From Methanomassiliicoccales archaeon (GTDB lineage Archaea > Thermoplasmatota > Thermoplasmata > Methanomassiliicoccales > UBA472), in the NCBI GenBank assembly GCA_026394375.1, contig JAPKYJ010000020.1, positions 1-37,297 on the forward strand: a stretch of 37,297 nucleotides of DNA. The letters run 5' to 3'. The notes under the pieces were generated by a model. That model had not been told where the DNA came from. It saw only the letters and a program-made list of their open reading frames with translations, and made no database searches. The translations under genes were made by a program, and so were the position numbers. Shown here one piece after another: positions 4,708-26,591 of the stretch (positions within the stretch are counted from its first letter, which is position 1; each line of letters begins with the position of its first letter).

Positions 4708-5259
4708 ATGGACAACAAAGAGATCAATGGGATCAACCGAGAACTGGATTCTGCCAATTCAGGCGCGCTGCTGGTCGCCATGGACCGTTTGGAGAGTGCG
4801 TTGCGCCATAGGTTGGGGGATGCTTCATCGCTCGGACCATTGGCTCGGTTGCTGAATCACGAGAACGCCGAGGTGCGCAAGAAGGCCATTTGGCTCATCG
4901 GCAAGTTGGCGCAGAACAAGGTCCCCGGCGAATACCCGATCTCATCCGTGCTCGGTCTGATGGAGGATGAGGACGAGGAGTCGCGCGAGAACGCCGCTTG
5001 GGCAGGTGGCGAAATGGCTGCTCTGCAGATAGGCAACGAACAAGAGGCAGAGAAGTTGAACTCCCTGTTGAAGGATGATAGCTCGCAGGTAAGGGGCATG
5101 GCCGCCTGGGCCTTAGGGCGGCTGGCGGAGAGGACCTCGGTTGCCCTCCGTTCCTCCGAAAGCCTCCTCAGACAGCTCCTCCAGGACAAGAGCGTCTACG
5201 TGAGCAAGAGCGCGTCCTGGGCCTTGGAACGTCTGGAACCTCTTTTAGCCAAGCGCTGA
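4708..5259 (+). CDS. HEAT-repeat protein
   Basis: A 183-residue all-helical repeat protein. At least four HEAT/PBS-lyase-type repeats are visible, each with the pattern xVRxxAxWxxGxLA: EVRKKAIWLIGKLA, ESRENAAWAGGEMA, QVRGMAAWALGRLA and YVSKSASWALERLE. Such proteins are usually binding scaffolds rather than enzymes. ATG 4708 has a GAGG about 7 bases upstream, and the frame ahead of it reads through the previous gene out of phase, so longer versions are unlikely. It probably forms a two-gene unit with the small Cys protein. No partner can be named. Confidence 0.85.
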   Translation: MDNKEINGINRELDSANSGALLVAMDRLESALRHRLGDASSLGPLARLLNHENAEVRKKAIWLIGKLAQNKVPGEYPISSVLGLMEDEDEESRENAAWAGGEMAALQIGNEQEAEKLNSLLKDDSSQVRGMAAWALGRLAERTSVALRSSESLLRQLLQDKSVYVSKSASWALERLEPLLAKR

Positions 5260-5378
5260 AGTAATCCTCTGAACGTGGTCAAACATTGGTCACATGTGCT
5301 CACTTCCTCCAAGTATTGTGACCGACCCTCTTCTGTTCCGGAAGCAGGCGGGAAGCCTGCGGACAAGGAGGAATCACG

Positions 5379-5837
5379 ATGGACGATTTCGAAGAGAAGA
5401 TCAAGGGAAGGATGCATGACGATCGCGAGTTCCGCGGAGTGGGCTGGAGGATATCCGCTTCCATCCTATCGGTCACGACCTGGCTGGCGGGTGGGGTGGC
5501 ATGGTTGTTCTTCCTGGCTGGTAACTACAGCATCTGGGAGAACATCGCCCTTTTCCTGGTGAGCCTGGTGGTGCTGGTGGGTCTGAACGCTTCCTGGTGG
5601 ATCGGCTACGGCATGCGGTTCATGCCTCATGGGAACGAGGCAGGAAGACGGCGTCGCTCCGCGCTCTCGGCATTTGCCGGTGTGACATGGGTGCTGGCGG
5701 TGGCCTTCTACCTGTACCAGTATGCGGGCGAATTCACCCTCTACCAGAATCTGGGTTTGCTGTTCGTCTCCCTGCTCATCATGGGCGGGGTGAACGCCGC
5801 CATCCACATCGGGAACCGCAGGATGAAATGCGCCTGA
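5379..5837 (+). CDS. Four-helix membrane protein with internal duplication
   Basis: A 152-residue integral membrane protein with a charged cytoplasmic-type N-terminus (about 25 residues) and four hydrophobic segments arranged as two similar pairs. The second helix of each pair aligns clearly: NYSIWENIALFLVSLVVL against EFTLYQNLGLLFVSLLIM, both followed by a GLNA or GVNA motif and a helix-ending WIG or HIG. This indicates duplication of a two-helix module. AAGGAGG lies 7 bases before ATG 5379, a strong initiation site. The function is unknown. The 2TM-type architecture suggests a small membrane-embedded accessory protein. Confidence 0.8.
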   Translation: MDDFEEKIKGRMHDDREFRGVGWRISASILSVTTWLAGGVAWLFFLAGNYSIWENIALFLVSLVVLVGLNASWWIGYGMRFMPHGNEAGRRRRSALSAFAGVTWVLAVAFYLYQYAGEFTLYQNLGLLFVSLLIMGGVNAAIHIGNRRMKCA

Positions 5838-5873
5838 TCCACGGGTACTACCGAACGCATGTCCTAGGCTGGC

Positions 5874-6965
5874 TCAAACCCCTTCATACTTCTTTTGCAC
5901 CTTTCCATCCGGTCCGTAGTATCTACGTCGAATCCAGAATGCCACGTTCACGAGCGATATGAGCACGGGCACCTCCATCAGCGGGCCGATGACGGCGGCG
6001 AAGGCCACCAGGGACTGGATGCCGAACACCCCGATCGCGACTGCGATAGCAAGCTCGAAATTGTTGCTAGCGGCGGTGAAGCTCTGCGCCGTCGCATGCG
6101 GGTAGTCGAACCGCAACTTGATCGATAGCCAGAAGGAGAAGAAGAACATGATGAGGAAGTAGATGACCAGAGGTATGGCCACCCTCACGACATCCAGCGG
6201 CTGCTGCAAGATGTACTGCCCCTTGAGCGAGAACATGACCACGATGGTGAAGAGCAATGCCAATAGCGACACCTTCCCGAATGCGGGGTTGAAGCGGTTC
6301 TCGTACCACTGCGTCCCCTTCCGAGGCAGAAGCACGAAACGCGTCAAGTACCCGGCCAAGAACGGAACGCCCAGGTAGATGAGCACGCTCTTGGCCACGT
6401 CCCAGATGCTGATCTCCACCACCCTTCCCGAGCCGGCGGAGACCCAATCGGAGGCGACGGCGATGAGGAAGTAGGCGTAGAAGGAGTAGAGCACTATCTG
6501 GAAGATCGAGTTGAGGGCGACCAGGATGGCCGCGTACTCCGAATCCCCCTCCGCGAGCATGTTCCAGACTATGACCATGGCGATGCAGCGAGCGATGCCA
6601 GTGAGAATGAGGCCGATGCGGAACTCCGGCAGATCGGGCAAGAAGATCCAGGCCAGCGCGAACATGAGCATCGGCCCGACCAGGTAGTTGAGGGCGAGGG
6701 AGGTGCCGAACATCCTCTTCGCCTCGGGCTGCTTGGCCACCTGGCCCAGCTCTTCGTACTTGACCCTGGCCAGGGGCGGCCACATCATGAGTATGAGGCC
6801 GATGGCGATGGGGATGGAGGTCGTCCCAATGCTGAGGCTGTTGAGCGCCTCCGCGATGCCTGGCACGGCGGCGCCCAGCCCCACGCCCAGGAATATCGCC
6901 AGGAAGATCCAAAGGGTGAGATAACGGTTCAGGAATGACAATTTCTTCTTGTCACGACCGGCCAA
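5874..6965 (-). CDS. acr3: Arsenite efflux permease, Acr3 family
   Basis: An integral membrane exporter of 363 residues with about ten hydrophobic helices, the size expected for Acr3 (BASS/SNF7-like fold). It extrudes arsenite, and in some members antimonite, by exchange with protons. The diagnostic segment [19 protein letters not shown] is present, and Cys127 in it corresponds to the conserved cysteine needed for transport. The start is TTG 6965, since no in-frame ATG occurs upstream and an AGGAG/GAGGG stretch (6971-6980) lies just ahead. No arsR or arsA is adjacent. An 18-base palindrome sits about 32 bases upstream. It is divergent from the COG0523 GTPase gene. Confidence 0.93.
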
Positions 6966-6996
6966 CTCGAACCCTCTCCTCTTGGATGCACTTCGA

Positions 6997-7014
6997 TTTC
7001 AAAACGGTTTGAAA
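6997..7014. promoter_or_regulatory. 18-base palindrome, candidate acr3 operator
   Basis: TTTCAAAACGGTTTGAAA has two perfect 7-base arms around ACGG. It overlaps a second dyad, GGTTTGAAACC (7006-7016). Reading towards acr3, a TTTATC element (7034-7040) lies about 30 bases upstream, which would put transcription start on the palindrome, where a repressor would block initiation. The assignment to acr3 is inference. Confidence 0.5.
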
Positions 7015-7167
7015 CCATTAGCTAGCCTGGAAATTGATAAAGGTTTCACCGCTCGTGAGAATATTTTTTGACTATTGGAGGGATGAATCAAATAATGGCA
7101 TTTCGTGTGCAATGCAAATCGTTTAATCAGTTCATGCCTTTTCTGCACTGCTTGCGAGGGATAGGCA

Positions 7168-8250
7168 TTGGCCACTAGGATAGCGATCATCGGGGGGTTC
7201 CTGGGCGCGGGAAAGACCACGCTCCTGACCAATCTAGCGAAGGAGTTCATGGCCCAAGGCAAGAGCGTGGCCATCATCACCAACGACCAGGGAGAGGTGC
7301 TGGTGGACACGCAATATGCCCGGGAGCTGGGCATCGACACGGCCGAGGTGCTGAAGGGCTGCTTCTGCTGCAAGTTCCCTGACTTCGTGGGTGCGGCCCG
7401 GAAGCTAGTGGACTCCAAGCGCCCGGACATAATCATGGCCGAGCCAGTGGGCAGCTGCACGGACCTTCTGGCGACGGTCGTGGCGCCCCTCAAGTTCCGT
7501 TTTCCCAACGAGTTCAGCGTCGCCCCCTTGACGATACTGCTCGACAGTACCCGAATCTCTGAGGGCGTGGAGGAGGAAGGATCGCTAGGAGCGTATCTGC
7601 GCAAGCACCAGGTGCAGGAAGCGGAGGTCATCGTGCTCACCAAGACCGATCTGCTCCCGGCGGACGAGGTCAAGGGTCTGCTGTCCATGGTGAAGGACAT
7701 GAACGCAGGGGCGAGAGTGATCCCCTACTCTTCCATCACCAAGCACGGGCTGGAGCAGATCGCGCAGCTCGTCATTTCCCGGGACAAGAGCCTCAAGCGC
7801 CCGGTGGACGTGGACTACGAGCTCTACGCCCAGGCGGAGGCGGAGCTGGGCTGGTACAATGGAACCTACAGCTTCGAGCTGCCTGAGGAGATTGATTCCT
7901 ACGAGCTCTCGCTCAACATCCTGAACGCGGTCTCGAAGCGCTATCGTCCAGGTGAGGTAGCGCACGTGAAGTTGCTCTTCTCCTCGTCCACGAATGCTCT
8001 CAAGATGAGCTTGGTCATGGAGAGCCTGGGAGTGGACGGGGTGCGTGGTTCTCGTCAGGTGCATGGCAACTGCACCATCAACCTGAACGCGCGGGTGATA
8101 TCAGCGCCGGAGCCGCTACGGGAGGCCATGCGAGCTTCGGCGCTCGAAACGCTCAAGAACAAAGGGGCGAAGGACGTGCAGTATCAGGACGATTGCTTCT
8201 CTCCCGGCAGACCGAATCCCACCTTCCGCATGAAGGATGGTGCTGGCTGA
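7168..8250 (+). CDS. COG0523/CobW-family metal-associated GTPase
   Basis: A G3E-class P-loop GTPase of 360 residues. Motifs are Walker A GGFLGAGKTT (9-18), the metal-binding GCFCC (64-68), EPVGS at the family's ExxG position and LTKTD for guanine recognition. Members deliver or insert metals (Co, Zn, Ni, Fe) into proteins or cofactors. The roughly 150-residue C-terminal half does not look like a typical CobW_C domain and ends with a CFSPGRPNPTF motif. TTG 7168 must be the start: an in-frame TAG lies at 7162-7164, the P-loop is only nine residues in, and GAGGG sits about 8 bases upstream. In a corrinoid-dependent methanogen a cobalt or corrinoid-protein role is plausible but not shown. Confidence 0.9.
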   Translation: MATRIAIIGGFLGAGKTTLLTNLAKEFMAQGKSVAIITNDQGEVLVDTQYARELGIDTAEVLKGCFCCKFPDFVGAARKLVDSKRPDIIMAEPVGSCTDLLATVVAPLKFRFPNEFSVAPLTILLDSTRISEGVEEEGSLGAYLRKHQVQEAEVIVLTKTDLLPADEVKGLLSMVKDMNAGARVIPYSSITKHGLEQIAQLVISRDKSLKRPVDVDYELYAQAEAELGWYNGTYSFELPEEIDSYELSLNILNAVSKRYRPGEVAHVKLLFSSSTNALKMSLVMESLGVDGVRGSRQVHGNCTINLNARVISAPEPLREAMRASALETLKNKGAKDVQYQDDCFSPGRPNPTFRMKDGAG

Positions 8251-8275
8251 AAGGGGATCGACCGAGGCAGGCAAG

Positions 8276-8743
8276 ATGGATTTCGAGTTCACGATGGGCG
8301 GCTGGGAGCTCCTGGACGAGGTCGAGCCCTTGTGGGCGGAACTGAATCGGCATCTTATCGAACGTTCCACGCATTTTGCCGCTACCTACGAGCACATGAC
8401 CTTTCAGGAAAGGCGGAGGGTGATCGATCGTCGCCCGCCCGGTACGAAGCTGCGGGTGGAGTTGGTGATGGTGAAGGGCAGCAAGGTCTACGTGGCCTAT
8501 TGCATCACCTCCCTCACTCCAGATGGGGCGGGTGAGATCGAGTCGATCTATGTGGACGATGGCTTCCGCCGCCAGGGGCTCGGGAGCAGGCTCGTGCGCA
8601 ACGCGATCAAGTGGCTGGACGAGCAAGGGGCAAGGAAGAAGCGGCTATGGGTGGCTTCTGGCAACGAGCAGGCGTTTCGCTTCTACGAGCGTCATGGCTT
8701 CCAAATCCGGCGCACTGAGCTGGAACAGACGAAACCACTCTGA
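8276..8743 (+). CDS. GNAT-family N-acetyltransferase
   Basis: A 155-residue protein with the GNAT fold signature. The acetyl-CoA pyrophosphate loop is RRQGLGSRL, preceded by IESIYVDDGFR (motif A strand), and motif B is NEQAFRFYERHGFQIRRTEL. It transfers an acyl group from acyl-CoA to an amine; the substrate is unknown. ATG 8276 begins right at the domain. An alternative in-frame ATG 8237 would overlap the end of the GTPase gene by 14 bases. It follows that gene closely and is probably co-transcribed with it. Confidence 0.88.
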   Translation: MDFEFTMGGWELLDEVEPLWAELNRHLIERSTHFAATYEHMTFQERRRVIDRRPPGTKLRVELVMVKGSKVYVAYCITSLTPDGAGEIESIYVDDGFRRQGLGSRLVRNAIKWLDEQGARKKRLWVASGNEQAFRFYERHGFQIRRTELEQTKPL

Positions 8744-8755
8744 TAAGGATAGAAG

Positions 8756-8764
8756 TTAAATATT
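8756..8764 (+). promoter_or_regulatory. TATA box for the Cys-rich winged-helix gene
   Basis: TTAAATATT is centred 26 bases before GTG 8786, consistent with a leaderless transcript. Confidence 0.5.
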
Positions 8765-8785
8765 GGAGGCTGTCCTGTCAGCGGT

Positions 8786-9415
8786 GTGAGCGCATCCTCC
8801 AGCTGCCGCATCGAGATCGCCCACATCGATCCTGAGGCATACACGGCGATCGTCAACCATCCTCTGCGCAAGGATATTCTGCGGTCGCTCTACCGCATGG
8901 CCCTCTCCGGACCGGTATCGAAGCAGAAGCTAGCGGATGAGCTGTCCATCGACTATCACCAGCTGGTCTACCAGCTGAACGACCACCTCCGGGAGTTCTG
9001 GAGAGTGGTGGAGGAGCAGAAGGTGAGAGGCACCCGCATGGAGCTCATCGCACCCGCTCATCCATCCACCGTCTACATCGCTCTGGGACGGGAGAGGAGC
9101 GTGAACGTGTTCGATCCGTTAGCCAACCTCTTCGGACCGCTGGCCAAGGTTGGAACGAGGTGTGATGCCTGTTCCCCCAGCGACGCGAGTCGCTGCATGC
9201 GCTACGTGCATAACGGCTGCGCCTGCACCAATTCGCTCTCGGCCGCGGAAAAGGACCTCCTCAAGGCAAATGGCCGTTCCTCGCCATACAGGCCGCTGGA
9301 CAACGCCATCCTCTGTGCCCTCAAGGGCATTTCGTCCGGGGAGAGCTGCGTCGTGGACATCCCTTGCGAAGGCTGCGCCTTTCTGAGGAAGACGATCAAG
9401 ATTTCGCTGGATTGA
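8786..9415 (+). CDS. Winged-helix protein with a cysteine-rich C-terminal domain
   Basis: A 209-residue putative transcription regulator. Residues about 20-70 (NHPLRKDILRSLYR, VSKQKLADELSIDYHQLVYQLNDHL) look like an ArsR/HTH_20-type winged helix. The C-terminal half carries nine of ten cysteines, in clusters RCDAC, RCM, GCAC, SCV and PCEGC, enough for a zinc site or an iron-sulfur cluster. A sensor of metal or redox state is the natural reading, but no family is recognised. The start is GTG 8786 with a TATA box 26 bases upstream. Because the window has an arsenite exporter without arsR, this is a possible, unproven regulator of it. Confidence 0.75.
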   Translation: MSASSSCRIEIAHIDPEAYTAIVNHPLRKDILRSLYRMALSGPVSKQKLADELSIDYHQLVYQLNDHLREFWRVVEEQKVRGTRMELIAPAHPSTVYIALGRERSVNVFDPLANLFGPLAKVGTRCDACSPSDASRCMRYVHNGCACTNSLSAAEKDLLKANGRSSPYRPLDNAILCALKGISSGESCVVDIPCEGCAFLRKTIKISLD

Positions 9416-16568: not shown

Positions 16569-18041
16569 TCAGGGAAGGAAGAACGCCTTCGCCGCTTCCC
16601 CGGCCACCTTCAGCACTGGCTCCGGGTAGAGACCGATGAGGACCACGGCCAGGAAGCAGATCGCCACCGCCACGCTCATGGACACGGGCATCTTCAGCTT
16701 GTCTTCGGGTCCCTTGTCCACATACATGTACTTCACGATGCGGGCGTAGTAGTACAAGGACAAAGCCGAGTTCAATATGCCCGCTATGGCCAGCCACAGC
16801 ATCCACTCGTTGCCGCCGATCTGCGAGGCATAGACCGGTCCGGAGAAGAGCACGAACTTGGAGGCGAAGCCCGCCAGCGGAGGTATGCCCGCAAGCGAGA
16901 ACAGCATCACCGCCATGGCTAAAGCCATCAGGGGAGCGCGCTTGCTCAACCCCTTGTAGTCCGAAATCTGCTCGCCCAACGCCACAACGCTCAGCGTGGC
17001 CACGACTATGAAAGCACCTCCCTTCATGAAGGCGTGGGTGATGATGTGGAATATACCCCCTTGCAGGCTGTAGTTCGCCAGCGATGGGTCGCCGACCACG
17101 GCGATGGGCAGCACGATCATTATGTACCCCGCCTGAGCGATGGATGAGTAGGCGAGCATGCGCTTGATGCTGGTCTGCTGCACGGCGATGAGGTTGCCCA
17201 AGGTCATGGTCGCAATGGCCAGTATACCGGCCATGAGCTGCCAGTCCGCCCGGATGGCCACCATGCTCAACAGGAAGACTTTGAACAGGGCCACAAAACC
17301 CATCTTCTTGCTTCCCGCGGCCAGCATGGCGGTGATGGTGGTGGGCGCGCCCTCGTACACATCGGGCGCCCACATATGGAACGGGACGATGGCCACCTTG
17401 AAGCCGAAGCCGGCCATGATGAGCACCACGCTCAGCATCAGGACCGGCTGCATGGTTCCCGAGACCAAGGCGAGCTTGGCGCCGATCTCGTAGAAGTTGG
17501 TCACTCCCACAGCCCCATAGAGCAGGGAGATGCCGAACAGCGCCAGTGCGGACGAGAGGCCGCCGATGATGAAGTACTTCACCGCCGCCTCCGCACCCCT
17601 CTTGTCCTTCTTGCGGAAGGCCACCAAGGCGTAGGAGGACAGGCTGGTAAGCTCGATACCAACGAACAACGTGATGAGGTCCACCGACGAGGCCACGACC
17701 ATCATGCCGGTGGTCGCCAGCAGGACGAGCGCATAGTACTCGCCGGTGTTCTTCTCCTTGTCCACGTACTTGATGGAAGCGATGACAACGTAGAGAGCGA
17801 CCGACTGGAACACCAGCATGAACAGCGCCGAGAACGCGTCCAGGCGCAACAGGCCGGCGAACTCGCCTCTCGAGCTTCCGGAGATGAAGAAGTTCAGGGC
17901 GAAGTACATGGAGACGGCGATGCCGACGATCGCCCATCCCGCAGTGGCCCTATCCGATTTGCCGATGGCGCGCACCGCAGGCGCGGCGACGGCGAACACG
18001 GCCATGACGATCAGGGGGTAGAGCATCGAATAGTCGGTCAC
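16569..18041 (-). CDS. fpoN: Fpo/Nuo-like complex subunit N (antiporter-type)
   Basis: A 490-residue, about 14-helix proton-pumping subunit homologous to NuoN and Mrp antiporters. Recognisable segments are TLFVGIELTSLSSYALVAF, with the conserved Glu of helix 5, AIVPFHMWAPDVYEGAPT and KRMLAYSSIAQAGY, the broken-helix region with its Lys. It is the last structural gene of the oxidoreductase operon. It starts with GTG 18041, which nearly abuts the fpoM stop at 18043, so translation is coupled. ATG 18026 would be a shorter alternative. Confidence 0.93.
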   Translation of the reverse strand: MTDYSMLYPLIVMAVFAVAAPAVRAIGKSDRATAGWAIVGIAVSMYFALNFFISGSSRGEFAGLLRLDAFSALFMLVFQSVALYVVIASIKYVDKEKNTGEYYALVLLATTGMMVVASSVDLITLFVGIELTSLSSYALVAFRKKDKRGAEAAVKYFIIGGLSSALALFGISLLYGAVGVTNFYEIGAKLALVSGTMQPVLMLSVVLIMAGFGFKVAIVPFHMWAPDVYEGAPTTITAMLAAGSKKMGFVALFKVFLLSMVAIRADWQLMAGILAIATMTLGNLIAVQQTSIKRMLAYSSIAQAGYIMIVLPIAVVGDPSLANYSLQGGIFHIITHAFMKGGAFIVVATLSVVALGEQISDYKGLSKRAPLMALAMAVMLFSLAGIPPLAGFASKFVLFSGPVYASQIGGNEWMLWLAIAGILNSALSLYYYARIVKYMYVDKGPEDKLKMPVSMSVAVAICFLAVVLIGLYPEPVLKVAGEAAKAFFLP

Positions 18042-18042
18042 T

Positions 18043-19545
18043 TCAGATCACCCCGGGGAAGAGATGCGCGATGGCGCTCGCCGCCGGCCGTATGATGTCG
18101 AACATGGTCGACGGGAACAGCCCGAAGAGGATGACGAACACGCACAGAACCGCCAGTGGCGCAGCCTCGTACCAGGAGACATCGTGCAGATGCGAGGTAT
18201 CGATCCGGTCGGTCATCGGCCCGAAGATGGTCCGCTGCATGGCCCATATGTAGTAGGCGGCGGTGATCGCCACCGAGATGATGGGTATGAGCAGGATCCA
18301 CTTGAACGCCTCCCAGGTGGCGAAGAAGATGCCGAACTCGGCCGCGAATCCCACTAGACCGGGGAGGCCTAGAGAGGCCATGAACCCGATCATTATGAAA
18401 GTGGCCAGCCAAGGCACCTTCACCGCCAGCCCTCCCAGCTTGGAGATCTCCCTGGTGCCAGCCTTGTGCTGCACCACGCCGCACACCATGAAGAGGATGG
18501 CCGTGATGAGGCCGTGGGCGAACATCTGGAACACTCCCGCGGCGATGCCTATCGTTCCCAGGGTGGCGATGCCCAGCAACACCAGGCCCATGTGCGAGAT
18601 GGACGAGAAAGCCACCATCTTCTTCAGGTCGCGCTGCGCCAGAGAGGCGAACGCTCCGTACATGATGGAGAGGATGGCGATGGCGAGCAGCAGCCATTGC
18701 AGCTCATGTGCGCCCGTGGGCAGAGTGGGCAACGCGATCCTCAGGATGCCGTAGGCGCCCATCTTCAGCAGCAATCCGGCCAGGAGCACCGATCCAGCGG
18801 TAGGCGCTTCCACATGCGCATCCGGCAGCCAGGTGTGGAACGGTACGATGGGCATCTTCACCACGAAGCCGAAGAACAGCGCCGCGAAGATGGCGATCTG
18901 GAACTCGCGCCCGAAGAACGGGTTTTGCTGCTGTATGGAGATCATGTCGAAGCTGCCCAGGTGCGCCTGGAAGTAGAGCGCGAAGATTGCCAGGAGCATG
19001 ACCAGCGAGGCGATGTGGGTATAGATGAAGAACTTGATGGCGGCGTACTCGCGCCTTGGTCCCCCCCATATACTGATGAGGAAGAACATGGGGATGAGCA
19101 CTATCTCCCAGAATACGTAGAACATGAAGTAGTCCAGGGACATGAAAACGCCCATGACGCCCACCTCGAGGACGAGCATGAGGCCCATGTACTCCTTGGT
19201 CCGGTTCTCGACGTCCCAGGAGAAGAGGATGGCCAGGAAGCAGAGCAGCGCGGTCAGCCAGACCATGGGCACGCTGATGCCGTCCACTCCCACGGCGAAG
19301 TTGACGCCCAACGCCTTGATCCACTCGAACTTTTCGTAGTACTGGTAGTCGTTGACGTTCAGCTTGGCCAGGTCGGTGTAGAGCAGGAGCAGGGTGGCCA
19401 GTATGAGGGTGACCGCGGAGAACGTCAACGCCACGTACTTGGAGGCTTTGGCGTGCTTTCCAGAGAGGAAGGTAACCAGGGCGCCGATGAGCGGTACCAG
19501 GATCAGCAGGGTCAGGATATGCATGTCTTGCAGCAGTTGCATCAT
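18043..19545 (-). CDS. fpoM: Fpo/Nuo-like complex subunit M (antiporter-type)
   Basis: A 500-residue pumping subunit. The family segments are MFYVFWEIVLIPMFFLISIWGG (helix-5 Glu), MPIVPFHTWLPDAHVEAPTAGSVLLAGLLLKMGAYG and DLKKMVAFSSISHMG, together diagnostic of NuoM. About 14 hydrophobic helices. It starts at ATG 19545 or the adjacent ATG 19542, 4 bases after the fpoL stop. It lies between fpoL and fpoN, the usual order. Confidence 0.95.
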   Translation of the reverse strand: MMQLLQDMHILTLLILVPLIGALVTFLSGKHAKASKYVALTFSAVTLILATLLLLYTDLAKLNVNDYQYYEKFEWIKALGVNFAVGVDGISVPMVWLTALLCFLAILFSWDVENRTKEYMGLMLVLEVGVMGVFMSLDYFMFYVFWEIVLIPMFFLISIWGGPRREYAAIKFFIYTHIASLVMLLAIFALYFQAHLGSFDMISIQQQNPFFGREFQIAIFAALFFGFVVKMPIVPFHTWLPDAHVEAPTAGSVLLAGLLLKMGAYGILRIALPTLPTGAHELQWLLLAIAILSIMYGAFASLAQRDLKKMVAFSSISHMGLVLLGIATLGTIGIAAGVFQMFAHGLITAILFMVCGVVQHKAGTREISKLGGLAVKVPWLATFIMIGFMASLGLPGLVGFAAEFGIFFATWEAFKWILLIPIISVAITAAYYIWAMQRTIFGPMTDRIDTSHLHDVSWYEAAPLAVLCVFVILFGLFPSTMFDIIRPAASAIAHLFPGVI

Positions 19546-19549
19546 GGTA

Positions 19550-21484
19550 TCACCACAGCCCTCCGATCAGGTACATGAGCAGCAGTATCACCGAGAGCGC
19601 TGCCACCACCACGGTGGCGTAGGTCTGGACCATGCCGGTCTGCACCTTCCTCAGTCCTTGGCCGCTCCTCACGGCCACGAAGCTGATGCCGTTCACGATG
19701 CCGTCGATGACCTTCTGGTCGAACCAGTCGACCAAGCGCGAGAAGCCGTAGACCACCTTGACCCCGAAGGCGTTGTAGCCCTGGGGGAAGTAGTAGCGGT
19801 TCAGGAGCAGGTCGTAGAACCTCTTCGAGCCTCCGGTGGCGAAGCGGCTCAGGCTGAGGCTCTTCTTGTAGTAGGCTAGGTACGCCAGGCCGATGCCTAG
19901 CGCCGCGACCGCTATGGAGACGTAGGTCAGCGGGTCACCAAACGTGCCAACGAGCACGTCCATGGCGCTCTTGATCTCCGCCTCTTCGAAGAACACCACC
20001 CCGCCCAGGCCGAACAGCACCACCAGGCCGGAGCCGAAGGCGAAGCAGGCCAGTATCACGAGTGGAACGGTCATTGTCTTGGGAGCTTCGTGAGCATGGT
20101 GCGCTGCCTCCCCCTCATGTCCGGTGAAGGTCATGAACCAGAGCCGGAACATGTAGAATGCGGTGAGGAACGCGGTCACCACTCCCATGGCGTACAGCAG
20201 CAGGAACACCCAGTTCTCGCTGCCCGCGGTGAAGACCGTGGCCAGGATCTCGTCCTTGCTCCAGAAACCGCTCAGCGGAGGTATGCCAGAAATGGACAGG
20301 GCGCCGATGAGCATCACCAGTGAGGTGATCTTCATCTTCGAACGCAGCCCGCCCATCTTATTCATGTCCTCAGTATGCACGGCATGGATGACCGCGCCGG
20401 CGCCGAGGAAGAGCAGGGCCTTGAAGAAGGCGTGGTTGATGAGATGGAACATGCCGGCGGTGAAGCCCGCGCTCCCTTCCGCCTTCATACCCAAGGCCAG
20501 CATGTATCCGCCCGCTCCCAGGGCAAGGAACATGTAGCCCAGCTGGGAAATGGTGGAGTAAGCGAGAACGCGTTTGATATTGGGACCGTTGAGCGCCATG
20601 GTGGCCGCGAAAATGGCGGTGAAACCGCCGATGCAGGCCACGAACAGCATCACGTCCGGGGTCTGTACCATCAAGGGGAACGACCTCGCCACCAGGTAGA
20701 CGCCCGCCTTGACCATGGTCGCGGCATGGATTAACGCCGAGACGGTGGTCGGGCCTTCCATGGCGTCCGGCAACCAGTCATGCAGCGGGAACTGTGCGCT
20801 CTTGCCTATCGCTCCGCCGAACACGCAGAACATGCCGAACGTGAGAAGATTCGTGTCTACGGCATGCGCCTCGAACAGCTCGCGATAGTTGAGCGTGCCG
20901 AAGGAGGCGAAGACCGTGATGATGCCGATCATGAACAGGATGTCGCCGATCCTGGTGACCAGGAACGCTTTCTTCGCCGCCGCTGCCGCTGACGGCTTGT
21001 AGTACCAGAAGCCGATGAGCAGGTACGAGCACAGACCCATGATTTCCCAGAAGACGAACATCTGCAGGTAGTTGCTCGAGACCACCAGGCCCAGCATGCC
21101 TGTCACGAACAGGGAGATCTCCACGTAGTAGCGGCGCTTCCTCTCCCCCTCCTCGTGCATGTATCCCAGGGAGTAGACGAGGATGAGCGTGCAGAGGATC
21201 GAGACCACTATCAGCATGACCGTGGTCAGGTTGTCGACGTAGTAACCCATGTCGAGCCTGAGCCCATTGCCCAGGTCGATCCAGATCATCTCGTTCGTGG
21301 CCACCGCCCGAGTGCCGGTGAGGAACTCGTAGGCCACCAGGAGCGAGAGCACCATGGCAGCGGCGATGCCGCCGACGGCGAAGTAGCCGCCCCCCTCGGG
21401 CGTCTTCTTGCCCAGTGCCGCCACCAGCAGCAGCCCCACCATGGGAAAGATCGGGATCAGCCAGGAATACTCTACGAAGGTCAT
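19550..21484 (-). CDS. fpoL: Fpo/Nuo-like complex subunit L (antiporter-type)
   Basis: A 644-residue subunit, the longest of the complex. The Mrp/NuoL signature is visible as FVFWEIMGLCSYLLIGFWYYKP, SAQFPLHDWLPDAMEGPTTVSALIHAATMVKAGVYL and NIKRVLAYSTISQLGYM. The C-terminal part, after FWSKDEIL, has additional helices and a long amphipathic region leading to a final helix, as in NuoL's lateral arm. It follows fpoK with a 1-base gap. Confidence 0.95.
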   Translation of the reverse strand: MTFVEYSWLIPIFPMVGLLLVAALGKKTPEGGGYFAVGGIAAAMVLSLLVAYEFLTGTRAVATNEMIWIDLGNGLRLDMGYYVDNLTTVMLIVVSILCTLILVYSLGYMHEEGERKRRYYVEISLFVTGMLGLVVSSNYLQMFVFWEIMGLCSYLLIGFWYYKPSAAAAAKKAFLVTRIGDILFMIGIITVFASFGTLNYRELFEAHAVDTNLLTFGMFCVFGGAIGKSAQFPLHDWLPDAMEGPTTVSALIHAATMVKAGVYLVARSFPLMVQTPDVMLFVACIGGFTAIFAATMALNGPNIKRVLAYSTISQLGYMFLALGAGGYMLALGMKAEGSAGFTAGMFHLINHAFFKALLFLGAGAVIHAVHTEDMNKMGGLRSKMKITSLVMLIGALSISGIPPLSGFWSKDEILATVFTAGSENWVFLLLYAMGVVTAFLTAFYMFRLWFMTFTGHEGEAAHHAHEAPKTMTVPLVILACFAFGSGLVVLFGLGGVVFFEEAEIKSAMDVLVGTFGDPLTYVSIAVAALGIGLAYLAYYKKSLSLSRFATGGSKRFYDLLLNRYYFPQGYNAFGVKVVYGFSRLVDWFDQKVIDGIVNGISFVAVRSGQGLRKVQTGMVQTYATVVVAALSVILLLMYLIGGLW

Positions 21485-21485
21485 C

Positions 21486-21788
21486 TTACCACCTCAGCAG
21501 GTTGAGGTCCGACAGATCCACCGTGTCAGAGGCCCTTTGCAGATTGAGGAGGATCGCTAGACCCACGGCCACCTCGGCGGCGGCGATGGCGATCGAGAAC
21601 AATGCGAACACCTGTCCGGAGACGTCGTGGTTGTAGACCGCGAAGGTCACGAAGTTGATGTTGGCCGCGTTGAGCATGAGCTCGATGGACATGAGCACGA
21701 CGATGGCGTTCCTCCGGGTCAGCACCCCGAAGGCGCCGATGACGAAGAGGATCGCCGCGAGCACCAGGAAGTACTCCTGCGGGATCAT
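21486..21788 (-). CDS. fpoK: Fpo/Nuo-like complex subunit K
   Basis: A 100-residue, three-helix membrane subunit. MSIELMLNAANINFV carries the conserved Glu of helix 2 in the proton path, and FALFSIAIAAAEVAVGLAIL has the second conserved Glu. The length equals bacterial NuoK. It overlaps the end of fpoJ2 by 4 bases and abuts fpoL. Confidence 0.95.
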   Translation of the reverse strand: MIPQEYFLVLAAILFVIGAFGVLTRRNAIVVLMSIELMLNAANINFVTFAVYNHDVSGQVFALFSIAIAAAEVAVGLAILLNLQRASDTVDLSDLNLLRW

Positions 21789-22015
21789 TCCTTCTCCTCC
21801 TGTGCGATGTACACGCCACCAAGCATGGAAGCGAACATTAGCAGCCCTACGATGATCAGGGTCGGTCCCCAGGTCTCGAAGATGGCCTTGCCCACATCGT
21901 TGGTCGTGAACTCGGTGTAGGTGCCCGCCCAGGTGATGGTGATGATGCTCCCCAGCACCACCAGCAGAAGGGCGATGGCCGAGACGGCCGCGGCCCAGGT
22001 CTGCTTATGTTTCAC
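21785..22015 (-). CDS. fpoJ2: Fpo/Nuo-like complex subunit J, C-terminal half (J2)
   Basis: A 76-residue protein with two hydrophobic helices that corresponds to the C-terminal part of NuoJ (ends GPTLIIVGLLMFASMLGGVYIAQEE). GTG 22015 is preferred over GTG 22024 because GGAGG at 22022-22026 stands 6 bases ahead of it. It overlaps the end of J1 by 11 bases. Together J1 and J2 cover the length of one normal NuoJ, so the subunit is split, not lost. Confidence 0.85.
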   Translation of the reverse strand: MKHKQTWAAAVSAIALLLVVLGSIITITWAGTYTEFTTNDVGKAIFETWGPTLIIVGLLMFASMLGGVYIAQEEKE

Positions 22016-22280
22016 ACTTGCCACCTCCTGACAGACGACGTTTGGTCAGCATGACCCCGAAGAGGATGAGCACGCACACCGCGCCCACGTAAACCAGTAT
22101 CTGGATGACCGCTATGTACTCGGCACCGAGGAAGATGAAGGTCATGGCCACGCCGATGAAAGTGATCGCCAGCCAGACCACATTTCGCACGATCTCCTTG
22201 GCGAAGAGCACCATCAGCGCCGCGAACACCGTGGCCGCGGAGAAGATGATAAAAAGTATCAGTTCCCAGTCCAAAGGCAT
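22005..22280 (-). CDS. fpoJ1: Fpo/Nuo-like complex subunit J, N-terminal half (J1)
   Basis: A 91-residue membrane protein with three hydrophobic helices that matches the first part of NuoJ, including the helix-3 motif GAEYIAVIQILVYVGAVCVLILFGVML, which forms the pi-bulge segment next to the quinone cavity. ATG 22280 is used because AAGGAGG, embedded in the last codons of fpoI, stands about 7 bases upstream. The upstream in-frame GTG 22286 lacks that spacing. Confidence 0.88.
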   Translation of the reverse strand: MPLDWELILFIIFSAATVFAALMVLFAKEIVRNVVWLAITFIGVAMTFIFLGAEYIAVIQILVYVGAVCVLILFGVMLTKRRLSGGGKCET

Positions 22281-22282
22281 GA

Positions 22283-23017
22283 TCACACCTCCTTCATCGT
22301 TATGGCATGTTTCGGGCAGTTATCGAGGCATTGCTCGCAGGCCACGCACTTCTCCCCGTCGAACTTGGGGCGCTTGATCGGCCGGCCTTTCTCGTTCTTG
22401 CCCACTTCGATCATGGTGACCGCGTCCGCCGGGCACACCTTCTCGCACTTGGAGCAGGAGATGCACTTCTTGTCCTCTACCTGGGGCAGGTCCCGCAATC
22501 CCGCCGTCGCTCCCTTGATGCTATGGCCCTTGGCTCCGGTCCCCAGTTCGGAAGGCTTGATCTCGACCAGATCGACCTCGCATCCAGGCCGGTCCTCGTA
22601 CTGCAGTCGGAACGGGTCGTAGATGAGGTCTTGTCTGGAATAAGTAGCGAGCTCATATTCCGGGGTCACGAGCATGGCGTTCTTGGGGCAGTACTCAGCG
22701 CAGTAGCCGCACATCATGCAGCGGCCGAGGTTCACCTGGGGCCGCTTGACCTTGCCCTTGCCTTCAAGCTCCACCTCGACGAGCTCGATGCAGGTGGTCG
22801 GGCATATCTTCTCGCAGATGCCGCAGCCGATGCACTTGTCCATGACCAGGCCGGGTCTTCCGCGGTAGCCGTCTGCGATGATCAGCCTCTCCCAGGGGTA
22901 GCGCACGGTGTTGGGGGTGTTCACGGTGGTCCTGATGGTCTCCTTCATGGTGACCACCATAGGCCTAAGCATGATCGCCCTTGGCCTCTTCTCCTTCCTG
23001 TCCTTCTTATCTGACAT
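22283..23017 (-). CDS. fpoI: Fpo/Nuo-like complex iron-sulfur subunit I with two extra [4Fe-4S] motifs
   Basis: A 244-residue peripheral-arm subunit. The first pair of cluster motifs (C62-x2-C65-x2-C68-x3-C72 and C100-x2-C103-x2-C106-x3-C110) is normal for NuoI/FpoI and passes electrons towards subunit B. After a linker of about 75 residues come two more motifs (C185/188/191/195 and C224/227/230/234), a complete second 2[4Fe-4S] ferredoxin module. Classical FpoI is much shorter and ends after the first pair. With no FpoF or NuoEFG nearby, the extra module could be the ferredoxin docking site. The start ATG 23017 overlaps the fpoH stop by 1 base or less. Confidence 0.93.
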   Translation of the reverse strand: MSDKKDRKEKRPRAIMLRPMVVTMKETIRTTVNTPNTVRYPWERLIIADGYRGRPGLVMDKCIGCGICEKICPTTCIELVEVELEGKGKVKRPQVNLGRCMMCGYCAEYCPKNAMLVTPEYELATYSRQDLIYDPFRLQYEDRPGCEVDLVEIKPSELGTGAKGHSIKGATAGLRDLPQVEDKKCISCSKCEKVCPADAVTMIEVGKNEKGRPIKRPKFDGEKCVACEQCLDNCPKHAITMKEV

Positions 23018-24091
23018 TTAGAGCCACCCCAGCATCTTGATAGCGATAGCGATTCCCAGGTTGATCAGCGCCAGAGGCATGAGGACCTTCCAGCCGATGT
23101 GCAGGATCTGCTTGGTGGTGACCCTTACCAACGCTCCCCTCACCCAGATGAATATGGCGAAGAGGATGAACACCTTGAGGATGAACCAGATCTCCGGCCA
23201 TATGAACGACGGGCCGTTCCAGCCTCCCAGGAACAATATGACGGCGACGGAGCAAGCCGCATAACCGCGGACATACTCGGACAGCATGATCAGTCCAAAC
23301 CTCATGCCGCCGTACTCGGTCATCCAGCCTTCGACCAGCTCCGCCTCTGCTTCGGGCAGGTCGAACGGGATCCTCTCCAACTCCGCGATGATGGAGGTGA
23401 GGAAGACGATGAAACCGAGGATCAAAGGAATGAAGAACCATATGTTCTGCTGCTGCGCCACGATCTCTCCCAGGTTGAATGTGCCCGTCAAGACCACGAC
23501 GCTCGCAACCGAGAGCAGCAACGGGACCTCATAGGCGATGAGCTGTCCGGCCGCCCTCATCCCACCCATGACGGTATACTTGTTGTTCGACGCCCATCCA
23601 CCGATCAAAATGGCGAAGGGGGCGATGGAGAACACGGCGAAGATCAGGAGCAATCCGGTTTGAAGGTTGGCCAGAGCAAAATCGGGGCTCAAAGGGATCA
23701 GCCCTATCATCATGCAGGACATTCCAATCAGAATGACTGGTGCCGCGTTATAGACCCAGATGTCGACGTCCTTAGGGATGATGATCTCCTTGACGAAGGC
23801 CTTGAGACCATCGGCGAAGTTCTGGAACAGGCCGAGGACGCCCACCTGGGTACCGCGGCGGTCCATGAGCCTTCCCAGGATCTTCCTCTCTTCCCAAATG
23901 AAAGTAATCGAGATCAAGAATCCCACTATGAAGACGATGAGCGCCGCCACGGCGTTCGTTAGGAAATAGACCACGCCGGAGGATGTGAACCAGTCAGCGA
24001 CATCGTGCAGCCCGATAAAGTTGAATATCCAGGCCACTACCTGCATCAGCCAGAGGGATAGGCCATAAGCGAACTCGAAGAGGCCGTTCAT
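23018..24091 (-). CDS. fpoH: Fpo/Nuo-like complex subunit H
   Basis: A 357-residue, eight-helix membrane subunit that forms the quinone-type carrier channel with B and D. Diagnostic parts are RKILGRLMDRRGTQVG, GWASNNKYTVMGGMRAAGQLIAYEVPL and RIPFDLPEAEAELVEGWMTEYGGMRFG, which contains the conserved acidic loop. ATG 24091 is used. The frame continues upstream to 24172, but that part overlaps fpoD and has no family resemblance. It starts 4 bases after the fpoD stop. Confidence 0.95.
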   Translation of the reverse strand: MNGLFEFAYGLSLWLMQVVAWIFNFIGLHDVADWFTSSGVVYFLTNAVAALIVFIVGFLISITFIWEERKILGRLMDRRGTQVGVLGLFQNFADGLKAFVKEIIIPKDVDIWVYNAAPVILIGMSCMMIGLIPLSPDFALANLQTGLLLIFAVFSIAPFAILIGGWASNNKYTVMGGMRAAGQLIAYEVPLLLSVASVVVLTGTFNLGEIVAQQQNIWFFIPLILGFIVFLTSIIAELERIPFDLPEAEAELVEGWMTEYGGMRFGLIMLSEYVRGYAACSVAVILFLGGWNGPSFIWPEIWFILKVFILFAIFIWVRGALVRVTTKQILHIGWKVLMPLALINLGIAIAIKMLGWL

Positions 24092-24095
24092 TTGC

Positions 24096-25181
24096 TCACC
24101 GGTCCGTCTCCCCGAGGCACATGTCAATCGATCCCATGATCGCCGGCACGTCCGCGATCTTATAACCGACAAGATACGCTGGCGCCGCGCTCACCGAGAC
24201 GAATACCGGGGAACGCACCTTCAACCGGTATGGGTGGTCATCGCCGTTCCCGATGACATACATGAACCCCTCGCCCCTCGGGTCCTCCACGTGCGCCCAG
24301 CCGGCCTTGCCTTTGGGCGCGGTGCGCGGAGGCTTGACCCGGTAGGGGCCCTGGGGAATCTTCTTAATCGCCTGTCTTATGATCTTGCAGGACTCGTACA
24401 TCTCGTCTACTCTGACGCGGTACCGGGCGAAGGCGTCGCAGCCTGTCTCGTAGCAGACATCGAAGTCGATGTCGGAGTACGCCTCATAGGGATCATCCTT
24501 GCGGATATCATATTCAACGCCGCTGCCCCTCAAGTTCGGCCCTGTGACGCCAAGGTTCTTGGCCTGCTCCGCAGTGAGTTTCCCCACATCCTCCATCCTC
24601 ATTCGGAAGATCGCGGACTCGTCGCAAAGCGCCTCTACGATTGCCAGCCGCTTCTCGAAAACCTTCAAGACACGGGTGAAGTCGCGCTCGAAGTTGGCCG
24701 GGACGTCGTTGCGAACGCCTCCGATCCGAGTATAGTTATATGTCAGCCTTGCGCCGCACAGATTCTGCATCAGGTCGAGGAACAGCTCCCTCTCCCTAAC
24801 GCAGTAAAGGAAGATGGTGTAGGAGCCTAGGTCAGTTCCCAGAGCAGCGAGCCACATCAAGTGCGAGCCGATCCTCTGCGCTTCCAGCACGATGGTGCGG
24901 ATGTACTTGGCGCGCTCCGGGACCTCCAGCTCTAGCATGTTCTCCACGGTCGAGCAGTACAGGTGGCTCCAGCTCATGGAGGAACCGTAGCATAGCCTGT
25001 CGGCCATGGGGATGATCTGCGGGTACATCCGGTTCTCGGCGAGCTTCTCCCAGCCGCGGTGCAGGTATCCAATAATTGGTTCAGCCTGGGTTATGGTCTC
25101 GCCATCGATTTTGACTCTGAGGTTCCACAGACCATGCGTCATAGGATGCTGCGGACCCATGTTCAGCCACATCTCGGCCAT
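24096..25181 (-). CDS. fpoD: Fpo/Nuo-like complex subunit D (49-kDa type)
   Basis: A 361-residue soluble subunit related to the large subunit of NiFe hydrogenases that lines the electron-carrier reduction site. Typical segments are MGPQHPMTHGLWNLRVKIDGE, GYLHRGWEKLAENR, DRLCYGSSMSWSHLYCSTVE and LRGSGVEYDIRKDDPYEAY. The hydrogenase metal-binding cysteine pairs are absent, as expected for complex I. It starts at ATG 25181, immediately after the fpoC stop. Confidence 0.95.
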   Translation of the reverse strand: MAEMWLNMGPQHPMTHGLWNLRVKIDGETITQAEPIIGYLHRGWEKLAENRMYPQIIPMADRLCYGSSMSWSHLYCSTVENMLELEVPERAKYIRTIVLEAQRIGSHLMWLAALGTDLGSYTIFLYCVRERELFLDLMQNLCGARLTYNYTRIGGVRNDVPANFERDFTRVLKVFEKRLAIVEALCDESAIFRMRMEDVGKLTAEQAKNLGVTGPNLRGSGVEYDIRKDDPYEAYSDIDFDVCYETGCDAFARYRVRVDEMYESCKIIRQAIKKIPQGPYRVKPPRTAPKGKAGWAHVEDPRGEGFMYVIGNGDDHPYRLKVRSPVFVSVSAAPAYLVGYKIADVPAIMGSIDMCLGETDR

Positions 25182-25676
25182 TTAAACCCTCCTCCCGCCG
25201 ACGAAATCTTTTCGATAGGGGAAGTAGTCCGTGCCCTCCGGCGTCAATATCCTTTCCAGTCTCGGATGGCCGATGAAAATGATGCCGAACATATCGTAGG
25301 TCTCGCGCTCATGCCAGTTCGCCCCGCCCCAAAGTGGGGTGACCGAATCCACCTCTGGCTTGTCGCGGGGCAACTCCACGATTATCTCCGCCGTCACCCG
25401 GTTCGAATAGGAAGTGATATGGTACACCGCCCACATCTTCTTCTCCTCTAGCCAGTCCACGCCACTCACGGCGGTAATGTGGTCGAAGTCGAGTGCGTCC
25501 TTCATGAACTTGGCCACGTTCAGCAGACCGACCTTGTCCACCATGGCGAAGACGCGGTTGTGCGTGACCTTCGTGATCTTAACGTATTCGGGGAACCTAT
25601 CGATAAGCTCCTTCGCAACGATTTCGCCTGTTTTGCCCCCGGCAGCCAATCCCGCTCTTTGTGCCACTTCCCCCAC
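25182..25676 (-). CDS. fpoC: Fpo/Nuo-like complex subunit C (30-kDa type)
   Basis: A 164-residue subunit matching NuoC: FDHITAVSGVDWLE early, then the family signature SVTPLWGGANWHERETYDMFGIIFIGHPRLERILTPE, and FPYRKDF at the end. It connects B and D in the peripheral arm. GTG 25676 starts just after the fpoB stop. A second GTG three codons later is equally possible. The N-terminal 15 residues are family-unlike, so the start is uncertain by a few codons. Confidence 0.93.
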   Translation of the reverse strand: MGEVAQRAGLAAGGKTGEIVAKELIDRFPEYVKITKVTHNRVFAMVDKVGLLNVAKFMKDALDFDHITAVSGVDWLEEKKMWAVYHITSYSNRVTAEIIVELPRDKPEVDSVTPLWGGANWHERETYDMFGIIFIGHPRLERILTPEGTDYFPYRKDFVGGRRV

Positions 25677-25677
25677 C

Positions 25678-26241
25678 TCAGTCTTCCAGGAAAGTCCCCT
25701 TCATTTCCTTGTGGATCTTCTTATGCAACTTCATGAACCCGTCGATCATCGCTTCTGGACGAACCGGGCAGCCGGGGATGTAGATATCCACAGGGATGAA
25801 GGTGTCGACGCCCTGTACGACATTGTAAGAGTCATACCACGGGCCTCCAGAAATCGCGCACTCGCCCATGGCCACGACCCACCTAGGTTCGGCCATTTGT
25901 TCGTAAAGGCGGCGTAGGTCCGGGCGCAGCTTGGCGGTGACCCAGCCGTTGATTAGGAGGACATCGGTCTGCCTGGGGGACGACCTGTAGATTATGCCCA
26001 AGCGCTCCGCATCGAACCGCGAGCCGGAGGCGGCGGCCATTTCCAAGGCGCAGCAGGCGACGCCGAAGTGCAAAGGGTAGTTGGCGTTGCGCAGCGCCCA
26101 GCTCCATATCGGCGCCGTGATCTTGTCAACCGCCTTCTTCGCGCCCGAGGCCGTCAATAGTTGGTCCATGACGTTCTTCGACCATACCAGGAACTCCTGG
26201 GCGGACATCGCGATGGCGTTGGGAGCGAGGCTCAGATCCAT
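25678..26241 (-). CDS. fpoB: Fpo/Nuo-like complex subunit B (N2-cluster type)
   Basis: A 187-residue iron-sulfur subunit that holds the terminal [4Fe-4S] cluster N2. The ligands are C63-C64 ([10 protein letters not shown]), C128 (MGECAISGG) and C158 ([10 protein letters not shown]). ATG 26241 has GAAGGAG about 8 bases upstream and overlaps the end of fpoA by 10 bases. An in-frame upstream extension to 26313 lies inside fpoA and is not family-like. Confidence 0.95.
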
Positions 26242-26591
26242 AGTATCTTCTCCTTCTTCAGAGCGTATGTGACCCCGATGACCAGCAGGACCAGGAAGAT
26301 CACCATGTACCACCTGGCGTTGTCGCTCAGGTCAGCGAGCACAAGCGCCCATATCATCAGGAAAACGGTCACGATGTCAAAAATGACGAAAATGATGGCA
26401 TATATGTAGAATTGAACGTGGAATTGGATCTGTCCGTGCCCGATAGGCTGTTCACCGCACTCGTAGGTCATCTTCTTCTGCGGCTGGAATCGCGTCGGCC
26501 GGAAGAACCTTGATGCCCAGAAAGCCAATGCCGGGAACAGGATGGCTATCAGTGCAAAGACGGCCACCGGATAATAGTCGTCAATGAGCAT
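26232..26591 (-). CDS. fpoA: Fpo/Nuo-like complex subunit A
   Basis: A 119-residue, three-helix subunit, the first gene of the operon. The conserved loop reads [24 protein letters not shown], with the Cys of the E/Q-chamber loop, followed by [12 protein letters not shown], which carries the helix-2 acid. ATG 26591 lies 25 bases after a strong TATA box and has no Shine-Dalgarno, so the operon message is probably leaderless. Confidence 0.95.

Follow-up and report, generated by a model that had tools for sequence, protein, structure and literature searches.

The window, by which we mean the whole stretch of 37,297 nucleotides that was analysed (contig JAPKYJ010000020.1), belongs to a Methanomassiliicoccales archaeon and carries a complex I operon of the Fpo type in the order fpoABCDHIJJKLMN. 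The operon is complete apart from the input genes, as a preliminary description of this DNA had stated, and fpoI stands between fpoH and fpoJ. The source genome is 99.84% complete and contains mcrA, and its closest named relatives by FpoI are Methanomassiliicoccales MAGs, with 71-74% identity. A split of fpoJ into fpoJN and fpoJC, of the kind that the operon appears to show, has been reported for the Methanomassiliicoccales (PMC4153887). The NiFe-binding motifs RxCGxC and DPCxxC, patterns that pick up hydrogenase loci in genomes other than this one, are absent from FpoD, so the complex is not an Ech/Mbh [NiFe] hydrogenase. The features, all on the reverse strand and numbered as in the window, are as follows.

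26232..26591, reverse: fpoA, open reading frame, used as the fpoA query
25678..26241, reverse: fpoB (N2 cluster subunit), open reading frame; start approximate, with an internal ATG
25182..25676, reverse: fpoC, open reading frame
24096..25181, reverse: fpoD (49 kDa-type subunit), with a PF00346 match at 24099-24833
23018..24091, reverse: fpoH, open reading frame; start approximate (internal ATG)
22283..23017, reverse: fpoI/nuoI, 244 aa, ATG start, four [4Fe-4S] motifs (open reading frame, TIGR01971 and motif scan)
22640..22864, reverse: module 1 of FpoI, residues ~52-126, normal NuoI 2[4Fe-4S] unit with the motifs at C62 and C100
22493..22621, reverse: linker of FpoI, residues ~133-175, of low confidence at 169-172 in the AlphaFold model
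22286..22492, reverse: module 2 of FpoI, residues ~176-244, second NuoI-type 2[4Fe-4S] unit with C185 and C224 and a basic hairpin at 206-219
22005..22286, reverse: N-terminal part of fpoJ, open reading frame that overlaps the fpoI stop
21783..22003, reverse: probable C-terminal part of fpoJ, short membrane open frame; start not fixed
21486..21788, reverse: fpoK, open reading frame
19550..21484, reverse: fpoL, open reading frame
18043..19545, reverse: fpoM, open reading frame
16569..18041, reverse: fpoN, open reading frame

Four Cluster Motifs in FpoI

The FpoI protein contains the motif CxxCxxCxxxCP four times, starting at C62, C100, C185 and C224, as the preliminary description had read it, and in 20,000 residue shuffles of the protein the count of such motifs stayed at one or none. 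Pfam detects two 4Fe-4S dicluster stretches. Residues 26-136 match TIGR01971, the NuoI/FpoI/Nqo9/TYKY family, at 158.2 bits (cut-off 113.05), and FpoI shares with this family the two-motif unit and the place between H and J; by homology, the clusters of module 1 would be N6a and N6b. Against NF040612, the model of 135 positions for FpoI of the F420H2 dehydrogenase, the protein scores 102.4 bits, below the cut-off of 180. A member of the NuoI family is expected to end shortly after its second motif, whereas here C185 and C224 follow; the solved NuoI members listed align to FpoI residues ~3-150 only, and among the NuoI and FpoI models listed, which have 121-220 positions, the best stretch is always module 1. 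The linker had been described as about 75 residues long, which is correct as a count from C110 (the last cysteine of motif 2) to C185; about 25-30 of these residues are ordinary NuoI C-terminus, and the true extra linker measures ~40-45.

Conservation of the second module is high. An alignment of 44 Methanomassiliicoccales sequences, with homologues 47-73% identical to the FpoI of the window, keeps all 16 ligand cysteines invariant. Other invariant positions of module 2 include G206 and P217, and its basic hairpin retains K210 in 42/44 sequences, K or R at 212 in 44/44 and K215 in 42/44.

We surveyed 98 genomes of the order, counting by hand from the match table. The FpoI match reaches at least residue 231 with an intact N-terminus in 92 of them; in one of these (G346) the contig breaks off at residue 231 of FpoI and a different contig holds the remainder. 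Two further genomes have an FpoI cut at the N-terminus yet carry module 2, which brings the module to 94/98. In one more, FpoI breaks off at residue 195, and three genomes, all incomplete, have no proper FpoI match; none of the 98 yielded an intact FpoI that lacks module 2. There is practically no chance that faulty assembly or a wrong frame made the C-terminal half, or that an unrelated ferredoxin gene was joined on by mistake in one genome; nothing was found in favour of this, and the same open frame recurs across the order, in independent named MAGs and in enrichment genomes. On this recurrence we rejected both an artefact and a one-genome oddity. The module had been presented as a peculiarity of the complex in the window; it is instead order-wide, and is shared with many non-methanogens.

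Origin and Predicted Fold of Module 2

Over 67 aa, module 2 shares 37% identity with module 1 in its own protein (E 7e-16), and their local alignment score is 140, against 51 +/- 10 for shuffles with the cysteines kept in place. Taken alone, module 2 has NuoI as its best curated family (53 bits), with PorD at 38-39. A profile of the order's module 2 scores 69-82 bits against module 2 of seven outgroup families (f19, f23, f25, f27, f28, f31 and f54), 38-53 bits against module 1 of those same proteins, and at most 44 bits against other ferredoxins at the sampled loci. The more distant module 2 of f13, f14 and f38 gives 51-63 bits, and 58-72 bits are also reached by certain module 1 units from hydrogenase-like complexes; profile scores alone are thus no proof of a single origin.

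The AlphaFold2 model, built on the 44-sequence alignment, has a mean pLDDT of 77 and a pTM of 0.66, with most of both modules at 82-91. It gives both modules the same topology of helix, long hairpin, helix and strand (67-118 and 190-242). Foldseek returns NuoI matches to module 1, while a FwdF-type polyferredoxin spans both modules at low TM-score. From sequence and model together, the simplest reading would be that module 2 is a tandem duplicate of NuoI's own 2[4Fe-4S] ferredoxin unit, joined to the first by the linker of ~40-45 residues.

Distribution in Thermoplasmatota

Complex I loci were read from other families of the class and phylum, which are given here as codes. NuoI with four or more motifs occurs in f8, f13, f14, f19, f23, f24, f25, f27, f28, f31, f38 and f54. 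Two of these, f8 and f24, possess five or six [4Fe-4S] motifs and up to three ferredoxin units (L095:7992-8849, L096:7962-8867, L105:1932-2906), and in the NuoI of f7 a degenerate motif accompanies three complete ones. A two-motif NuoI in a complex I without NiFe motifs is found in f22 (which we take to be Thermoplasmatales), f30, f33, f36, f39, f47, f53, f55, f61 and f62. In f25, f27, f28 and f31 (L106-L110, L157, L158), just nuoB and the extended nuoI stand together in the stretch read, and the remaining complex I genes must lie elsewhere. Plasmid records held no place covering 80% of the FpoI query.

The preliminary description had proposed to align the homologues and map the module on a tree, and we built one from concatenated FpoB, C, D, H and module 1 of FpoI. 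It places module-bearing complex I on one side and two-motif complex I on the other, except for f39 and one f32 contig. The carrier group is supported at 0.75 (FastTree) and 70 (ultrafast bootstrap), and the two-motif group at 1.00 and 100. One gain of module 2 with a loss in f39 would be the most economical history of these sequences, with moderate support only. The NuoI of f39 (L166) ends in a cysteine-free, repetitive tail rich in Ala, Lys, Glu and Pro instead of module 2, and the f39 genome has two PF01512 genes elsewhere. A loss in f32 was considered and rejected: a short NuoI stands with BCD on L145 (G137:C2), but a second contig, L180 (G137:C33), has a module 2 sequence at ~5138-5371, at the contig edge and immediately upstream of nuoJ. 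Here nuoI may be split or present twice.

The gene mcrA is absent from all 38 outgroup genomes, 24 of which carry the module. The module is thus bound neither to HdrD nor to methanogenesis, and a methanogenesis-specific device was rejected.

Electron Input Subunits

The preliminary description had noted that FpoF and NuoF are missing from the operon, and had named their presence elsewhere in the genome, with a conserved partner interface, as a finding that would refute its reading. The search was extended to the whole 99.84%-complete genome, and neither the NuoF model PF01512 (9 controls positive) nor the FpoF/FrhB model PF04432 (Methanosarcina control found) has a match anywhere. The complex thus has neither the FpoF that defines the F420H2 dehydrogenase nor the NuoF that defines the 14-subunit Nuo. 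Among 120 genomes of the order, PF01512 is found in 6 and PF04432 in 15.

Among the outgroup genomes, 3/24 carriers vs 7/14 non-carriers have PF01512 (Fisher p 0.02, a test that ignores relatedness), and 3/24 vs 0/14 have PF04432. These counts are approximate, and PF01512 was rejected as a clean NuoF marker, since one of the three carrier matches, in f7, is RnfC in an Rnf operon (open reading frames read by eye). The family f54 has module 2 plus a NuoF-type gene adjoining a NuoG-like open reading frame, likewise read by eye. The six non-carrier genomes within the class have neither PF01512 nor PF04432, and the Thermoplasmatales together with f30 and f33 have no module 2 and no detected NuoF or FpoF. 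A missing input subunit therefore does not predict the module, and the strict rule that the module is present when NuoF/FpoF is absent was rejected.

A Proposed Path of Electrons

We consider it reasonably probable that the complex is a headless complex I, in which module 2, as a duplicated NuoI unit, would act as a covalently attached input wire upstream of N6a. Module 2 is most likely the ferredoxin entry site of a complex without the usual input subunits. It would bind two more low-potential [4Fe-4S] clusters, presumably at the tip of the arm and in a geometry that would let them hand electrons on to N6a, and these clusters would be the electron input of the headless 11-subunit complex. Electrons would run from reduced ferredoxin, the probable donor, to module 2, then through N6a and N6b of module 1 to N2 in FpoB, and from there to a membrane acceptor.

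This path is proposed from three lines. In cyanobacterial NDH-1L, a headless relative of solved structure, ferredoxin docks at the apex of the arm on Lys86/89/91 of NdhI and reduces N6a (PMC7021789). In the numbering of the PDB alignment, these lysines fall in the hairpin that joins one motif to the next, and the basic hairpin of module 2 may by analogy occupy the position of this ferredoxin-binding site. Lastly, M. luminyensis reportedly has a headless Fpo that oxidises ferredoxin and passes electrons to HdrD (PMC7374477); by analogy with that report, ferredoxin oxidation in the present complex may be coupled to ion pumping. Also in favour of the path are the invariant ligands, the likeness of module 2 to module 1 in sequence and predicted fold, the absence of NuoF- and FpoF-type genes from the genome and the lower frequency of PF01512 among outgroup carriers. 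The idea of a built-in ferredoxin port holds as the best reading of a module that is real and conserved, and it is qualified by the Thermoplasmatales, which have neither the module nor a detected NuoF or FpoF. The further claim that no separate input subunit would be needed was too strong, given those same Thermoplasmatales and the headless Fpo of Methanothrix, which is described as ferredoxin-dependent (PMC7374477).

That description, and the direct reduction of a two-cluster NuoI by ferredoxin in NDH-1L (PMC7021789), are counterpoints to the proposed path, as are the Thermoplasmatales, f30 and f33, with neither the module nor a detected input gene, and f54, with both the module and a NuoF-type gene. 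The first two favour a reading in which module 2 lies off the main path, as a store of charge, a domain for stability or docking, or a side branch with a regulatory role, and in which ferredoxin enters at N6a as in NDH-1L. The family f39, which sits in the same tree group and has no module, points the same way. We judge this improbable: none of the eight additional ligands varies within the order, and f8 and f24 lengthen the chain to 5-6 motifs, both of which suggest electron transport.

It is also unlikely, in our assessment, that module 2 is an electron-carrying dock for a dedicated partner (HdrD, MvhADG-HdrABC or an oxidoreductase) instead of free ferredoxin; in methanogens the module could even be an exit branch to HdrD. 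The order has no HdrE, a direct contact of Fpo with HdrD has been proposed (PMC7374477, PMC10804542), and the linker would fit a mobile arm touching a partner. However, the 24 outgroup carriers without mcrA argue that HdrD or methanogenesis was not the original or general purpose, and a lineage-wide module better fits a general donor such as ferredoxin.

Beyond the ferredoxin entry site itself, we propose tentatively, as something that may well fall short, a distinct complex I lineage that takes in the methanogenic Methanomassiliicoccales together with some dozen Thermoplasmatota families that are not methanogens. In it, the NADH or F420H2 input module would have been replaced by internal duplication of NuoI, so that four to six N6-type clusters would form a wire in line, fed directly by ferredoxin. 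Such a lineage would add a third kind of complex I head to NuoEFG and FpoF.

Comparison with Known Systems

The complex resembles cyanobacterial NDH-1L in its headless 11-subunit core, its presumed ferredoxin donor and entry at the NuoI homologue, NdhI (PMC7021789). It differs in that NdhI has two clusters and that the small OPS subunits NdhS/V/O occupy the ferredoxin site of NDH-1L, a position that the covalent ferredoxin-like module would take here. With the Fpo of Methanosarcina and the headless Fpo of Methanothrix and Methanomassiliicoccales it shares the FpoABCDHIJKLMN core, and it differs from the F420H2 dehydrogenase in having no FpoF and an FpoI below the NF040612 cut-off. Both FpoF and FpoO have been reported absent in Methanomassiliicoccales (PMC4153887). 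The polyferredoxins FwdF and MvhB also carry several 2[4Fe-4S] units per chain, and Foldseek aligns both modules with FwdF (5t61, 5t5m) over 206-232 columns at a TM-score of 0.23-0.27; these proteins are separate subunits, not extensions of NuoI.

The same genome contains a second complex-I-related operon (L190, G000:C27:28000-37000, genes 5065-8916, reverse strand). It encodes antiporter-like L/M/N, a NuoB-like protein, a fused NuoC-NuoD-like protein without NiFe cysteine motifs and a NuoI-like ferredoxin of 112 aa whose first motif is degenerate (CFAHKDC). By its sequences it looks like the Ehr (energy-converting-hydrogenase-related) complex, which has been described for the MALP genome (PMC6147122).

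Meaning for Complex I

A headless, ferredoxin-driven Fpo without FpoF and FpoO in this order is already published (PMC4153887, PMC7374477). The extra FpoI module was not found described in the literature searched, of which coverage was partial, and an earlier mention is possible. Earlier work treated the source of electrons for 11-subunit complex I as unsettled and found no common donor protein (PMC11238625). A conserved ferredoxin-like module fused to the entry subunit, across a whole lineage, offers for these archaea an answer that is concrete and open to test. The module has a bearing on the energy conservation of methyl-reducing gut methanogens and on how complex I came by its different input heads.
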